This document shows positions 3,122-49,946 of a stretch of DNA of 64,000 nt, in pieces; positions within the stretch are counted from its first letter, which is position 1; each line of letters opens with the position of its first letter. The translations under genes and the position numbers were made by a program. The notes under the pieces were generated by a model. It did no database searches. It worked only from the letters and a program-made list of their open reading frames with translations, and was not told where the DNA came from. Source of the stretch: an uncultured Clostridia bacterium (lineage in GTDB: Bacteria > Bacillota > Clostridia > Christensenellales > UBA1750); assembly GCA_904393115.1 (NCBI GenBank), contig CAJFMX010000007.1, positions 1 to 64,000 on the forward strand, written 5' to 3'.

Positions 3122-6100
3122 ATGAAACGTGTTCTCGCACTCCTGTGCAGCCTCACGGTTCTGTGTGCGGCGCTGCTTGTGGGCGTTCCCACGGCGCAGG
3201 CGGCCGTGGACGGAACGGTGCGCGTGTGGCTGAAATCCATGAACGAATATGGGACCATTCAGTCCGTGTCCATCACGCTGGACGGCTCGTATTCCATCCC
3301 CACCGCTCCGGAAGTTTCTCTCTCCACGCGCGGAACCTATTACATCGAAAACGTGGACGGGACGCTGATGATCTCCGGAACGGGCATCGACGGGCAGGTG
3401 GCCGTGGGCACCAAGTTCACCGTCAAGCAGCACAAGAACGACGACGGCTCCATCGGCACCATCAGCCTGTACAACAACCGCTACGGCAACCGGTCCTACC
3501 GCGGCGACATGCTCTTTGAGATCTACAACGGCAGCCTGCGCCTGATCAACTACGTCTACATCGAGGACTACCTCTACGGCGTGCTCGCGGGCGAGCTGAG
3601 CAACACCTTCCCGCTGGAGACGCTCAAGGCGCAGGCCATCATCGCCCGCTCCTACGTCTACAACCGCATGCTGACCAACGAGCCGAACTACGAGATCGGC
3701 GATACCTCCAGCGACCAGGTCTACAAGGGCTACAATTCCGCCAACACCAACATCATCCGCGCCGTGGACGAGACCGCGGGCATCCTTCTGCAGTACGGCT
3801 CCAAGTACGTCAACGCCTACTTCGGCGCCTCCAACGGCGGCCAGGTGGAGCTGCCCGGCAACGCCTGGTCCTCCTCGAGCTCGGAGGGGTGCTACGTCAT
3901 GAAGGACGATCCCTACGACGTGCGCAATCCTTCCTCGCGCTCTGTCACCTACACCTTCACCACGGACCCCGACTCGCTGGACACCTCCTTTTACGTCCTG
4001 ATTCAGGACAAGGTCTACCAGGAGCTGGGCTATTACCCCAACATCGCGGGCATCCAGGACGTGTGGCTGAGCGACCCGGTGGAGACGGACGAGCGCTCCC
4101 GCGGCATCAGCCGGAACTACCAGACCATGAACATGACCGTGACGGTGCGCGAATCGGGCTGGAGCAGCTCCGACGACAGCAATGTGTACGACCCCTTCGC
4201 GCCCTCCGATTCCGACAGCGGCAGCGTGGAGACGGTGGACATCTCCATCGACCTGCACAACGAACTCAAGTGGATCCTCTTCAGCGCGGATTCCGACCTG
4301 CGCCTCTTCTCCCTGGAGGAGGACGGAAACTACTACTACCTGACGCTGGCCCGCTACGGCCACGGCGTGGGCATGTCCCAGCGCGGCGCCCAGCAGATGG
4401 CCAACGAGGGCCACGACTACGAGGACATCATCTACTTCTACTTCAACGACGTCTCCCTCCCCAAGATCGACTTTGTCCGCGAAGAGCTGACGACGAACGT
4501 GCCCATCAGCGATTCGCCCATCGCAACGGCCACGGTCACGGCCTCCAGCCTCACCGTGCGCGCGGATGCCTCGACCTCCGCCTCGAAGCTCGGGTCCCTG
4601 TCCCGCGGCACGGTCGTCAACGTCTACGCGGAGCTGGACGGCTGGCTGTGCATCGTCTACAACGGCTCCATCGGCTATATCAGCACGGACTACGTGACGC
4701 TGTCCGATTACTCGGAATCGGGCGGAAGCACGACGCCCGGCACGGGCGGGGACGACGCGCTCTACCGCGCGCAGGTCACGCTCTCCACAGCGTCCTCAAC
4801 CCTGAAGCTGCGCGAGTCGGGCTCCTCGTCCGCAGACGTCCTGACCTACATGCCGCACGGCACGATCGTCGAGGTGCTCAGCGACAGCGGAAGCTGGTAC
4901 CAGGTGCGCACCCTGGGCGGAACCGTGGGCTACTGCTCCGCACAGTACCTGACGCGCCTGGACGATGAGATCACCACGACCACCACCCCGACGGAGACGT
5001 CCGGGCAGAGCGATCCGGATGCGGTCGTGGCCACGGGCGAGGTGACCGGCTCCAGCGTCAACGTGCGCTCCGGCCCGTCCACGAGCGCCAGCGTCCTGGG
5101 CTCGCTGAAGAAGGGCGACGGCGTGGAGATCATTTCCCAGAACAACGGCTTCTATCGAATCGTCTACAACAGCGGCATGGCCTACATCTCCTCCTCGTAT
5201 GTGCGCGTCACCGGCACGGTGGCAACGCCCACGCCCACGGCGGACCCGGACGACGAGGACGAGGACGCGGTCGCGGCCATGGGCGAGGTGACCGGCTCCA
5301 GCGTCAACGTGCGCTCCGGCCCGTCCACGAGCGCCAGCGTTCTGGGCTCGCTGAAGAAGGGCGACGGCGTGGAGATCATTTCCCAGAACGGCGACTTCTA
5401 CCGGATCGTCTACGGCGGCAGCACGGCCTACATCTCCGCCTCCTATGTGCGGGTCACCGGCACGGTGGAGACGGCGGAACCCACCGCCACGCCCGACTCC
5501 GGCTCCTCCGGAGACCTGGAGGAGGGGGAGGCCCTCATCGCCGACTCCGGAACCGCCCTCATGGGCGACCCGAGCGGCAGCGTCATCTATGAATACCTCT
5601 CCCGGAACGACGTGGTGACGATCCTCGACTCCGAGGGCAGCTATTACCTCGTCCGCACGGAGGACGGCGAAACGGGATACGTCGCAAAGTCCGCGGTCAA
5701 GGCCGCGGAGACCGAGACGCCTTCCCCCACGGAGACGCCGGAGAGCGGCGGCTCCTCCAGCCGCCAGGGCACGATCAAGCTCTCCTCGTCTTCCTCCAAC
5801 CTGAACCTGCGCCAGGGGCCGAGCACCTCCACGGACGTCCTTGCGACGCTGCGCCACGGGCAGAGCGTGACCGTCACGGGCGAGAGCGGCGACTGGTACG
5901 CCATTGAGGTCAGCGGCTACTCCGGCTACGTCATGAAGACCTACGTCACCTTCTCCGAGGACGAGGAGAGCTCCTCCGGCAGCAGCGGGGTGTTCCCCGC
6001 CGTGATCCGCCTGAGCAGCTCCTCCTCAACGGTCAACGTGCGCTCCGGCGCGGGCACGAACTACAGCAAGATCGGCTCCCTCACCAACGGTGCCTCGGTC

Positions 6101-47408: not shown

Positions 47409-48305
47409 TCAGCGCTGGCGCTGCACGCCGCCGAGGACCGTGCCCTCGTTTTTGCCGTAGAGCGTGCCCACGCAGCCGCCGATGTGCGCGCCGGGCAGGA
47501 TGTTGCCGTACACCGTGGTGATGTCGCCCGCAACGCGGCCGGAGACGTCGCCCATGACCTTGCCCAGCACGCTGCCGCCGACCTCGCCCGTCAGGTTCCC
47601 GCGGAGGATCTTGCGGTTCTTGGTGTAGACCGTGCCGAGGTCACCGCCCACGCGGCCGGACAGGGCCCCGCCGATGGGCGCGGTGACGTCGCCGTCCACC
47701 GTGCCGGTGAGGTCGCCGCCGATCGGGCTGCGCACGCTGCCCTGCACGTGCCCCTCCATCCGGCCGCCGATGGGCCCGGTGACGTCCCCGCAGATCTCCA
47801 CGCCTGGCTCGATCGAGCCGCCGATGGGGCCGCTGACGCTGCCGCCGATGCGCGCGCCCTGGCGGATGCTCCCGCCCACCGGGCCGCGCACGCTGCCCGA
47901 GATCTGCGCGTTGCGGCCGATGGGCCCGCCGAGCACGCCCGTCACGTCGCCGTCCACCTGCACGTTGTCCGCGATGCCGCCGCCGATGATCCCGTGCACG
48001 CCGCCCTCGATGCGCGTATTGCCGGCGCCCGTTCCGATGGAGCCGCCGAGCACGCCGGTCACGTCCCCGCCGATGTGCACGCCGTCCGCGATGCTTCCGC
48101 CCACGATCCCGCGCACGCTGCCCGCGACGTCCGCGCCGATGTCCCTGCCGTAGATGCCCGAGACGCTGCGCCGCGCGCTCTGCTGCGCGCGCGATCCGGC
48201 CGCGCCTGCTCGCGCCTGCAGGGCCTCGATCTCGCGGTCCGCCTCCTCGGGCGTCAGCTCGCCCGCCGCGACCGCGTTCAGGATTTCTTCCATGCTCGCA
48301 TACAT
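47409..48305 (-). CDS. Glycine-rich beta-solenoid protein B (bactofilin-like), unknown family
   Basis: A 298-residue protein without signal peptide or membrane segment. Residues 1-32 are a short helical element (MEEILNAVAAGELTPEEADR). From about 57 nearly everything is solenoid: five units of 18 residues such as GGSIADGVHIGGDVTGVL, one of 21, two of 16, then octapeptides and two insertions with DLGTVYTKNRK and TLYGKNEG. This pattern predicts a parallel beta-helix with one unit per coil, as in bactofilins. AGGAGG 9 bases before ATG 48305 sets the start. It is the third gene of an operon with a paralogous protein and a DUF2089 regulator. A scaffold or filament role is inference. Confidence 0.82.
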   Translation of the reverse strand: MYASMEEILNAVAAGELTPEEADREIEALQARAGAAGSRAQQSARRSVSGIYGRDIGADVAGSVRGIVGGSIADGVHIGGDVTGVLGGSIGTGAGNTRIEGGVHGIIGGGIADNVQVDGDVTGVLGGPIGRNAQISGSVRGPVGGSIRQGARIGGSVSGPIGGSIEPGVEICGDVTGPIGGRMEGHVQGSVRSPIGGDLTGTVDGDVTAPIGGALSGRVGGDLGTVYTKNRKILRGNLTGEVGGSVLGKVMGDVSGRVAGDITTVYGNILPGAHIGGCVGTLYGKNEGTVLGGVQRQR

Positions 48306-48319
48306 GTCGCCATTCCTCC

Positions 48320-49447
48320 TCATGGATGATGGATGTCGCCGCACACCTTGCCGCGGTTGACGCCGCGCAGGCAGCGCACGTCGCCCCGGATGACCGCGCC
48401 CTCCAGGATGTCCCCGCAGATCTCCTTTACGTCGCCGTTCACGCAGCCGGAGACGTTGCCGCGGATGCAGCCCAGCGCGTCGCCGCCGACGGCGCCCGTG
48501 AGATCGCCGAGGAGCTCCCCGTCCACATCGCCCGAGACGCAGCCCGAAAGGTCGCCGTGGATGCGGCCGCGGTAGTCGCCGCGGACCTGGCCGGAGAGGC
48601 TCCCGCCGATGTCGCCCAGGCAGTCCCCGCCGACGCGGCCGGACAGGTCCCCTTCGATGCGGCCGCGGAAGTCGCCGCTCACCTCGCCGGAGAGGCTGCC
48701 GCCGATGTCGCTGTGCGCGTCTGCGCGGACCGCCCCGGAGAGGTCGCCGGCCACATTGCCGGAGAAGTCGCCGCAGACAACGCCCGCGAGCGAACCGCCG
48801 ACGTTCCCGCGCAGGTCCCCGCCGACGCGCCCCTCCGGCGCGAGGCTGCCGGCGATGTTCCCGCGCATGTCGCCCGCGACGCTGCCGGCCAGATCCCCGG
48901 AAATCGACCCGACGACGTCGCCGGCGATCTGCGCGCCCGGCCGCACGGACCCGAGGATGGACCCATACACCGAGCCCTCCACGCGCGTGCCCGCTTCCAC
49001 GTCGCCGGCGATGGTGCCCACGCGCCGGCTCGCCGAGCCGCCAAAGGCCAGCTCCAGCTTCCGGGAGAAGCGGTCGGCCCAGACCGCCGCGCCGCGCCCC
49101 ATGTCCTCCGCAAAGGAGGCCGCGCCGCGGCTGAAGTCCTCGGCCCACTGGTTCAGGCGATCCGCGCTGTCCTGCAACCGCTCCTCGAGCGGCCGGCCCT
49201 GCGCGCTCGGGCCCTGGGTCCACGCCGCGCCGCCGGCGGAGGGGTCCGCCCCATCGGGGTCCGCCTCCTGACTGGAGGCCGACTGCCTGTCAGGGGTGGG
49301 GTCTGGCTGGTCCTGCGGCATGGGGTCTTCGGCGGGGGCGGGTTCCCCCTGCGCGGCTTCCAGCGCCGCGATGGCTGCCTCGGCCTCGTCCGGCGTGAGC
49401 TTGCCGGCGGAAACGGCGGCGAGGATTTCCTGCATGTCCCGATCCAT
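48320..49447 (-). CDS. Glycine-rich octapeptide beta-solenoid protein A, unknown family
   Basis: A 375-residue protein without signal peptide. Residues 1-32 form the same helical element as in protein B (MQEILAAVSAGKLTPDEAEA). Then come an acidic Pro/Gln linker (33-85), an amphipathic helical stretch (86-136, with LNQWAEDFSRGAASFAEDMG), and from about 175 to 343 some twenty-one tandem octapeptides of the form xG(D/S)(L/F/V)xGx(V/I), broken only once. The amphipathic stretch could bind membrane. AAGGAG 6 bases before ATG 49447 sets the start; the stop lies in the leader of protein B. It resembles bactofilins in principle, but not in repeat length. Confidence 0.84.
   Translation of the reverse strand: MDRDMQEILAAVSAGKLTPDEAEAAIAALEAAQGEPAPAEDPMPQDQPDPTPDRQSASSQEADPDGADPSAGGAAWTQGPSAQGRPLEERLQDSADRLNQWAEDFSRGAASFAEDMGRGAAVWADRFSRKLELAFGGSASRRVGTIAGDVEAGTRVEGSVYGSILGSVRPGAQIAGDVVGSISGDLAGSVAGDMRGNIAGSLAPEGRVGGDLRGNVGGSLAGVVCGDFSGNVAGDLSGAVRADAHSDIGGSLSGEVSGDFRGRIEGDLSGRVGGDCLGDIGGSLSGQVRGDYRGRIHGDLSGCVSGDVDGELLGDLTGAVGGDALGCIRGNVSGCVNGDVKEICGDILEGAVIRGDVRCLRGVNRGKVCGDIHHP
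48512..48799 (-). repeat. Three tandem 96-base super-repeats
   Basis: These encode residues 217-312 of solenoid protein A. Each 32-residue unit has four octapeptides and starts with GGSL: GGSLAGVVCGDFSGNV, GGSLSGEVSGDFRGRI and GGSLSGQVRGDYRGRI mark the first halves of the three units. Confidence 0.85.
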
Positions 49448-49472
49448 TGCGATCTCCTTTCCCCTGCGGCGC

Positions 49473-49841
49473 TCAGGGTTTTTTCAGCATGTCCAGCGCC
49501 TGTTCCTGCGTGATTTCGCCCTGCGCGAGCATCTCCAGCACCTCTTTGCGCGCCGGCTTTTCCTTGCTGGGGTTCGATTCCAGCCCCAGCGCGGCAAGAA
49601 TCTGGTCCAGCCGCGCGCGCACGGTGGGATAGCTGATGCCCAGCTCCTTCTCCATCTCGCGGATGTTGCCGCGGTTGCGCAGGAAGGAGAGGACGAAGCT
49701 GCGCTGCTCCGGCGTCAGCGCCAGGAGCCGCTCGGCCTGAAAATCCCCCTCGATGCTGGTGCCGCAGGCCGGGCAGTGCAGCTTTGTGATGTGCAGCGGC
49801 TTGTGACAGACGGGGCAGTCGTGCAGTACGTCGTGTGCCAC
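49473..49841 (-). CDS. DUF2089-type zinc-ribbon/HTH regulator
   Basis: A 122-residue protein. A zinc ribbon (C9, C12, C23, C26: CPVCHKPLHITKLHCPAC) is followed by TSIEGDF, a helical part and a helix-turn-helix (about 58-82: NIREMEKELGISYPTVRARL), as in DUF2089. Residues 99-120 (KEVLEMLAQGEITQEQALDML) repeat the helical element that opens both solenoid proteins. DUF2089 genes often precede DUF4097/YvlB-type proteins; here solenoid genes stand in their place. The GTG at 49841 follows GGGAGGTGA at an ideal distance and is preferred to the GTG at 49850. It probably controls its own operon through the palindrome upstream, by inference. Confidence 0.88.
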   Translation of the reverse strand: MAHDVLHDCPVCHKPLHITKLHCPACGTSIEGDFQAERLLALTPEQRSFVLSFLRNRGNIREMEKELGISYPTVRARLDQILAALGLESNPSKEKPARKEVLEMLAQGEITQEQALDMLKKP

Positions 49842-49869
49842 GAGCCTCACCTCCCTTTCGTTTGTCTAT

Positions 49870-49897
49870 AGGATAGCACAGACTGCAAAATTGTCAA
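49870..49897 (-). promoter_or_regulatory. Promoter of the DUF2089-solenoid operon
   Basis: On the minus strand a consensus TTGACA (49892-49897), 16 bases and TATCCT (49870-49875), with TG one base before the -10 box. Confidence 0.75.
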
Positions 49898-49901
49898 GAG
49901 A

Positions 49902-49946
49902 AAAGCTCAAAATATTTAAGATTAAATCTTAAATATTTTGAGCTTT
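49902..49946. promoter_or_regulatory. Perfect AT-rich palindrome upstream of the solenoid operon
   Basis: Arms 49902-49923 and 49925-49946 are perfectly complementary over 22 bases around one central base; the arm reads AAAGCTCAAAATATTTAAGA and then TT. It ends 4 bases before the -35 box. It may be an operator for the DUF2089 regulator, or the terminator of the NagD-like gene, since TTTTCTCTT follows on the minus strand. Confidence 0.8.

Follow-up and report, generated by a model that had tools for sequence, protein, structure and literature searches.

A compact operon of one regulator and two repeat proteins

The window analyzed here comprises 64,000 nucleotides (nts) of contig CAJFMX010000007.1 from an uncultured Clostridia bacterium. 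Its minus strand carries three tightly packed genes, which encode in order a regulator of the DUF2089 type and two glycine-rich repeat proteins, termed A and B. The gaps between them measure 25 bp (DUF2089 to A) and 14 bp (A to B), and each gene has a ribosome-binding site, with AGGAGG preceding the B start. The DUF2089 gene is best started at the GTG at 49841, served by the Shine-Dalgarno sequence AAGGGAGG; a start at 49850 is disfavored. Promoter-like sites number two within 3 kb, compared to 0.1 expected in shuffled sequences: one lies directly upstream of the operon, and the other, at 47392-47364, serves the downstream GH3 glycosidase gene. The coordinates, the gaps and the TTGACA-16-TATCCT promoter thus sustain the initial annotation of three close-packed minus-strand genes behind one good promoter. 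The system is real, conserved and well delimited; it belongs to a published, predicted type and is not categorically new. Its principal elements are as follows.

49473..49841, minus strand: DUF2089 regulator, 122 amino acids (aa), with a zinc ribbon (residues 9-38), a helix-turn-helix (HTH, 42-88) and a SHOCT-like C-terminus (98-121)
48320..49447, minus strand: protein A, 375 aa; open reading frame with orthologues at the same operon position in loci L071 and L072
47409..48305, minus strand: protein B, 298 aa; open reading frame with orthologues in G001, G002/L071 and G003
49349..49444, minus strand: SHOCT-like bihelical head of A, residues 2-33; AlphaFold helices 2-13 and 19-33, pLDDT about 90
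48201..48293, minus strand: SHOCT-like bihelical head of B, residues 5-35; AlphaFold helices 5-13 and 19-35
49067..49189, minus strand: amphipathic helix of A, residues 87-127; 11-residue periodicity, low-confidence AlphaFold helix
48323..49024, minus strand: predicted beta-solenoid of A, residues 142-375; 16 residues per turn, pLDDT mostly 90-98, aspartate ladder unbroken over nine turns
47412..48164, minus strand: predicted beta-solenoid of B, residues 48-298; 16-18 residues per turn, pLDDT mostly 85-97
49870..49897, minus strand: operon promoter, TTGACA-16-TATCCT, sigma-70-type with TG ahead of the -10 element; in the same place in loci L071, L072 and L073

A SHOCT-like domain is shared by all three proteins

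On sequence grounds, the DUF2089 identity of the first gene is certain. Its HTH matches PF09862 at 4.9e-24 (84.2 bits, curated cut-off 33.4) and its zinc ribbon matches PF22747 at 3.9e-15 (56.1 bits, curated cut-off 27.6), in full agreement with the zinc-ribbon/HTH protein initially proposed. The C-terminus, in turn, matches PF22746 (SHOCT-like_DUF2089-C) at 6e-4. Two more DUF2089-HTH genes occur in the same genome (G000:C14:46523-46660 and G000:C5:71135-71272; L002 and L003). Both are devoid of the zinc ribbon, such that PF22747 matches the window regulator only among the DUF2089-HTH genes of this genome; both have relatives in the genus, and a gene for a small membrane protein follows the C14 copy.

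The key to the operon is that a domain resembling the regulator's own C-terminus appears at the N-termini of A and B. There PF22746 scores 12.5 bits in A and 17.1 bits in B (E 0.004 against all Pfam), rising to 26.1 bits (E 6e-6) in the homologue from an Oscillospiraceae locus, L098. When the A/B family was aligned by hhalign with the SHOCT-DUF4097 family, only the SHOCT heads aligned (E 7e-5, probability 63). Together with the helical hairpins of the models, these matches show that A and B each open with a SHOCT-like domain of ~35 residues like that at the regulator's end, which places both proteins in the slot of the usual DUF2089 partners. The initial annotation, right in its main parts, had overlooked this common domain. 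In the relative Christensenella sp. UBA7102, an additional gene lies between DUF2089 and A (L071 5406-5786), whose product is related to the A N-terminus (E 4e-7) and consists of a SHOCT-like head, an amphipathic helix and 18-residue repeats, without a solenoid. In the L098 locus, the DUF2089 protein itself (4977-5552) carries a long Gly-Asp-Ser-rich insert between its HTH and its SHOCT-like end.

A and B are predicted right-handed beta-solenoids

Beyond their heads, A and B are dominated by short repeats. Self-match in A reaches 0.324 at lag 16 compared to 0.111 in shuffles (z 10.4), with a further maximum at lag 32 (z 11.7); B peaks at lag 18 (z 5.6). The repeats had been described as octapeptides in A and units of 18, 16 and 8 residues in B. 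This periodicity is indeed far above chance, but its true unit comprises four residues, h-x-G-x (self-match 0.25 at lag 4), with glycines spaced by four in 36 of the 57 gaps of A; the longer periods, 8/16/32 in A and 18/16 in B, are super-periods built upon it. In nine consecutive turns of A, Asp, Val and Gly each keep one fixed position throughout. B, by comparison, is less regular and close to neutral.

Single-chain AlphaFold models, built with seven aligned sequences for A and five for B, place these repeats in long solenoids. The A model comprises a hairpin (2-33), an unordered segment (35-84), a helix (87-127) and a solenoid (142-375) with a pLDDT dip near 239-244. The B model consists of a hairpin (5-35) and a solenoid (48-298) whose pLDDT dips to 69 at 221-230. 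In A, strands return at intervals of about 16 residues, and in B at intervals of 16-18. Against solved structures, the best neighbor of both is the right-handed beta-helix 3p4g, the Ca2+-dependent ice-binding domain of MpAFP from an Antarctic bacterium (for A, Z 17.8 with an rmsd of 2.6 over 213 residues; for B, Z 17.6 with an rmsd of 3.6 over 241 residues), a likeness of generic fold. Right-handed beta-helices in general align at an rmsd of mostly 2.6-4, and the left-handed helices of LpxA, LpxD and GlmU were rejected at 11-12. At a threshold of E<=0.001, Foldseek matched neither model to a Protein Data Bank (PDB) entry; PDB sequence matches, such as an ARID-domain protein and a pyridoxal kinase, were of low complexity only and were rejected as compositional. 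The models thus argue that A and B are right-handed beta-solenoids, in keeping with the parallel beta-helices first proposed. A cytosolic location, likewise proposed, is consistent with a Kyte-Doolittle scan that found no transmembrane segment in A or B (top 19-residue mean about 1.0 in both).

Protein A bears, in addition, an amphipathic helical stretch between head and solenoid. Its maximum hydrophobic moment of 0.49 at about 100 degrees exceeds shuffles (p<0.001), which bears out the earlier description, and its lag 11 self-comparison gives 10 matches where 2.6 are expected (p<0.001). The L071 orthologue is also 11-periodic (lag 11 p 0.006), and the moment lies above shuffles in five of five relatives tested, at only p 0.03-0.04 in two of them.

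Distribution and exchange of effector domains

An A/B profile was searched against 396 genomes of the order. SHOCT-solenoid genes were found in ten of them: four belong to family f18 and six to f1, the family of the window. DUF2089 adjoins the SHOCT-solenoid gene in all eight that could be checked (G000, G002, G008, G010, G054, G075, G093 and G150); in G001 and G003, the remaining two, the contig stops short of the DUF2089 position. Beyond the order there is one case, that of Oscillospiraceae L098, again beside DUF2089. Two further matches within the order (G381, G064) proved to be glycine-rich or antisense frames with no relation to these genes and were rejected.

Genome contigs scanned with protein B gave no match, and a DUF2089 alignment was used for the locus scan instead. 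It yielded 37 named DUF2089 loci, and the neighbor content described below covers the loci listed. In Thermoanaerobacter and Caldanaerobacter, DUF2089 is followed by a SHOCT-DUF4097 gene and often then by a SHOCT-short gene. Paenibacillus has SHOCT-DUF4097 alone, and Sedimentibacter, Mobilisporobacter and Tissierella have SHOCT-short alone; in L071-L073 and in L098, a SHOCT-solenoid gene follows. The survey thereby confirms that solenoids stand where DUF4097-type genes usually follow DUF2089. Relatives repeatedly show a helical or low-complexity segment that separates the head from the solenoid. G075 has solenoid genes on both sides of DUF2089; in the second of these, the separating segment is a long alanine-rich coil. 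Two other arrangements occupy the same neighborhood: in Cloacimonadota (L100-L106), DUF2089 overlaps a DUF4097-like gene that by eye has no SHOCT head, and at L142 1909-3870 a 653-aa SHOCT-headed acidic protein follows DUF2089, as yet another kind of effector in that slot.

In a tree of 37 DUF2089 proteins, the solenoid-linked members form two supported clades (99/99 and 97/87) plus L098. The tree demands three partner changes, one of them forced, compared to 8.2 in shuffles, and fits a single or several origins. This clustering implies that regulator and effector type travel together. Genome G054 has one DUF2089 with a solenoid partner and another, of a different clade, with a SHOCT-short partner, implying that partner type follows regulator type. 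The solenoids themselves change fast while their architecture is retained: dN/dS comes to about 0.56 when B is compared with its G003 orthologue, and to 0.23 when DUF2089 is compared with that of L071.

Relation to DUF2089-Toastrack and Lia systems

LiaX and YvlB proteins of the Lia system combine a head domain with a beta-rich C-terminal domain, which in LiaX is DUF4097-like. A and B likewise consist of a head and a beta-rich C-terminal part, of a different domain type. The window operon differs further in having a one-component regulator in place of a two-component system, and neither LiaFSR nor PspC nor another membrane partner was recognized in it. The Lia effector LiaX is described as exerting inhibition by way of its C-terminal domain (PMC11601895).

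A closer precedent is found in the DUF2089-Toastrack operons. In the passages that Ravi et al. 2024 devote to DUF2089, the protein is split into a zinc ribbon, an HTH and a SHOCT-like domain, and a four-gene DUF2089-Toastrack context is described across diverse bacteria and proposed to transduce membrane signals in the manner of the lia operon, as a PSP/Lia-like system (PMC11237479). The same passages propose the SHOCT-like domain as an inner-membrane anchor and describe Toastrack (DUF4097) as a right-handed beta-helix platform (PMC11237479). Such operons, exemplified by L074 of Thermoanaerobacter, whose neighbor matches DUF4097 at 3.2e-16 and SHOCT at 6e-11, share with the window operon the gene order and the regulator architecture, as well as effectors composed of an N-terminal SHOCT-like domain, a spacer and a beta-helix; in several species, two effector genes stand in a row. 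Since Toastrack is itself described as a right-handed beta-helix, the A/B solenoids contrast less with the usual partners than was supposed, and A and B share the trait of a predicted right-handed beta-helix in a SHOCT protein beside DUF2089. What differs is the helix, which here is a tetrapeptide solenoid rich in glycine; no profile similarity between it and the DUF4097 part was detected. PF13349 (DUF4097) gives no match in A or B at E<=1, compared to 1e-14 to 1e-16 in genuine neighbors, and the genome's own DUF4097 genes are located elsewhere. A PDB sequence search with a DUF4097 neighbor gave no match.

Calling the operon undescribed was therefore too strong, as DUF2089-Toastrack operons are published as predicted membrane-stress systems (PMC11237479). 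The tetrapeptide-solenoid version appears to be the new part: the DUF2089 passages of two open papers do not describe it, and no experimental study of DUF2089-SHOCT operons was found in the open literature searched.

Proposed function and alternatives

The operon may best be understood as a variant of the DUF2089-SHOCT effector operons, a one-component stress-response system on the membrane side with SHOCT-headed rods as effectors, an interpretation for which we judge the chances to be even. Under this proposal, a stiff right-handed h-x-G-x solenoid would replace the DUF4097/Toastrack beta-helix of many relatives as the effector domain of A and B. Protein A would rest on the inner face of the membrane through its amphipathic helix, the A and B rods would stack into an array, and their SHOCT heads would keep the DUF2089 regulator at that site. 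If the membrane or the array changed, the regulator could be freed or altered and would then adjust transcription of its own operon and perhaps of others. The computations establish the conserved gene order, the domain content, the solenoid models, the amphipathic helix and the common SHOCT-like domain; membrane contact, stacking into an array, SHOCT contacts with the regulator, the stress signal and autoregulation are inferences.

Several observations weigh against this proposal. The helix of A has a net charge of -4, unusual for lipid binding, and a low model confidence (50-60), and B has no helix of this type. Neither A nor B reaches the curated PF22746 cut-off of 27 bits, in a domain of only 32 residues. 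For the canonical SHOCT domain, experiment did not support oligomerization (PMC3581485). No PspA, PspC, LiaI/LiaF or other known membrane partner was recognized in or adjoining the operon, and a shared operator sought upstream of DUF2089 genes could not be established as conserved.

A more tentative proposal is a sub-membrane stress-sensing polymer, in which stacked A and B solenoids would hold a one-component regulator through SHOCT contacts and tie transcription to a cytoskeleton-like array. Cited alongside it are fusions in related genomes that place the same kind of rod on a DNA-binding domain. In G100 and G082, of another family of the order, an XRE-type HTH is fused directly to a short h-x-G-x solenoid (L136 2529-3140 and L137 2393-2911, both minus strand), upstream of a flavodoxin-like reductase and a permease.

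The main rival holds that A and B are bactofilin-like cytoskeletal polymers, forming end-to-end filaments that shape or organize the cell, with DUF2089 only setting their dose. Bactofilins are also cytosolic right-handed beta-helices with short turns of similar length and a possible membrane peptide, and the amphipathic helix of A could contact the membrane as the bactofilin N-terminal peptide does. PF04519 matches A weakly (E 0.0012), as it does the G150 homologue (8e-4), and both MinC and the bactofilin filament 6rib occur far down among the Foldseek results. However, the match in A attains 19.4 bits compared to a cut-off of 27.9, the family is absent from B and most relatives and gives no match in G000 at E<=0.001, and the structural match to 6rib_A is not significant (E 1.1). 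Profile searches with PF04519, DUF2089 and DUF4097 accordingly gave no above-cut-off bactofilin or DUF4097 match in A or B and confirmed only DUF2089, so that of the bactofilin-like architecture first suggested, a weak structural likeness stands. A and B are also longer and more regular than bactofilins, and are encoded with a regulator; their operon position and shared SHOCT head point to regulation. We know of no bactofilin with a SHOCT head. We consider this rival unlikely, and it is partly compatible with the membrane-side effector proposal, as the array could be the sensor.

An improbable alternative takes the V-x-G-x-x-x-x-x octapeptide pattern as a sign of intertwined trimers like the gp5/VgrG spike, the solenoids forming a rigid needle as scaffold. 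Gp5_trimer_C (PF22178) does score 28.5 bits (1.8e-6) in the L073 homologue and 11.6 bits in A, and gp5 chimeras surface at weak E in the PDB sequence search. Neither A nor L073 reaches the cut-off of 30.9, though the latter falls just below it; the period is 4 within 16-18, not 8; the models reach pLDDT 97-98 as one-chain solenoids; and the vicinity holds no phage or secretion genes.

Less probable still, A could be a cation-binding solenoid whose aspartate ladder binds Ca2+ or another cation, the operon sensing or storing it. Both this ladder and the Ca2+-dependent 3p4g as best structural neighbor would suit such a role, but an RTX motif is lacking, B is both less regular and near neutral, and 3p4g is possibly just the most regular solenoid in the library. 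Least probable of all is that A and B have no specific role and are passive, low-complexity products of repeat expansion in a GC-rich genome: fast sequence change and variable repeat number would fit, but different genera retain the order of the genes, the SHOCT head, the register of the solenoid and the C-terminal cap, the architecture is kept in a second family, dN lies below dS, and the folded models are confident.

DUF2089-SHOCT operons are widespread in Firmicutes, and in them the regulator and SHOCT head are joined to at least three effector domains, namely Toastrack, a short domain and the tetrapeptide solenoid. The use of several effector domains on one scheme points to the SHOCT head as the working link and to the rod as an interchangeable part. 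Two questions thereby become directly testable: whether SHOCT joins regulator to effector, and whether a regular rod at the membrane is enough to transmit stress. Irrespective of function, the tetrapeptide solenoid, whose 16-residue turn is near-perfect, offers a clean natural model for solenoid design.

Flanking sequences

Upstream of the operon lies a gene for a HAD-family phosphatase, and downstream the GH3 glycosidase gene with its own promoter; neighboring genes read as HAD, PrmA, MFS and GH3. One further element separates the HAD gene from the operon promoter.

49902..49946, minus strand: perfect 22-bp inverted repeat with a 1-nt loop; RNA fold z -6.9

This repeat most likely terminates the upstream HAD gene and may also serve as an operator. 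The terminator assignment is favored because the hairpin is retained in L071 and L072 with altered letters and accompanied by T-runs. Paired C-T-T/C-A-A-A elements, 14 bp apart in L071, L072 and L073, recur in looser form in the window, and are not claimed as an operator because the AT-rich background makes them uncertain. The genome measures 2.73 Mb in 62 contigs, and its close relatives include Christensenella sp. UBA7102 (Christensenellaceae, Clostridia).

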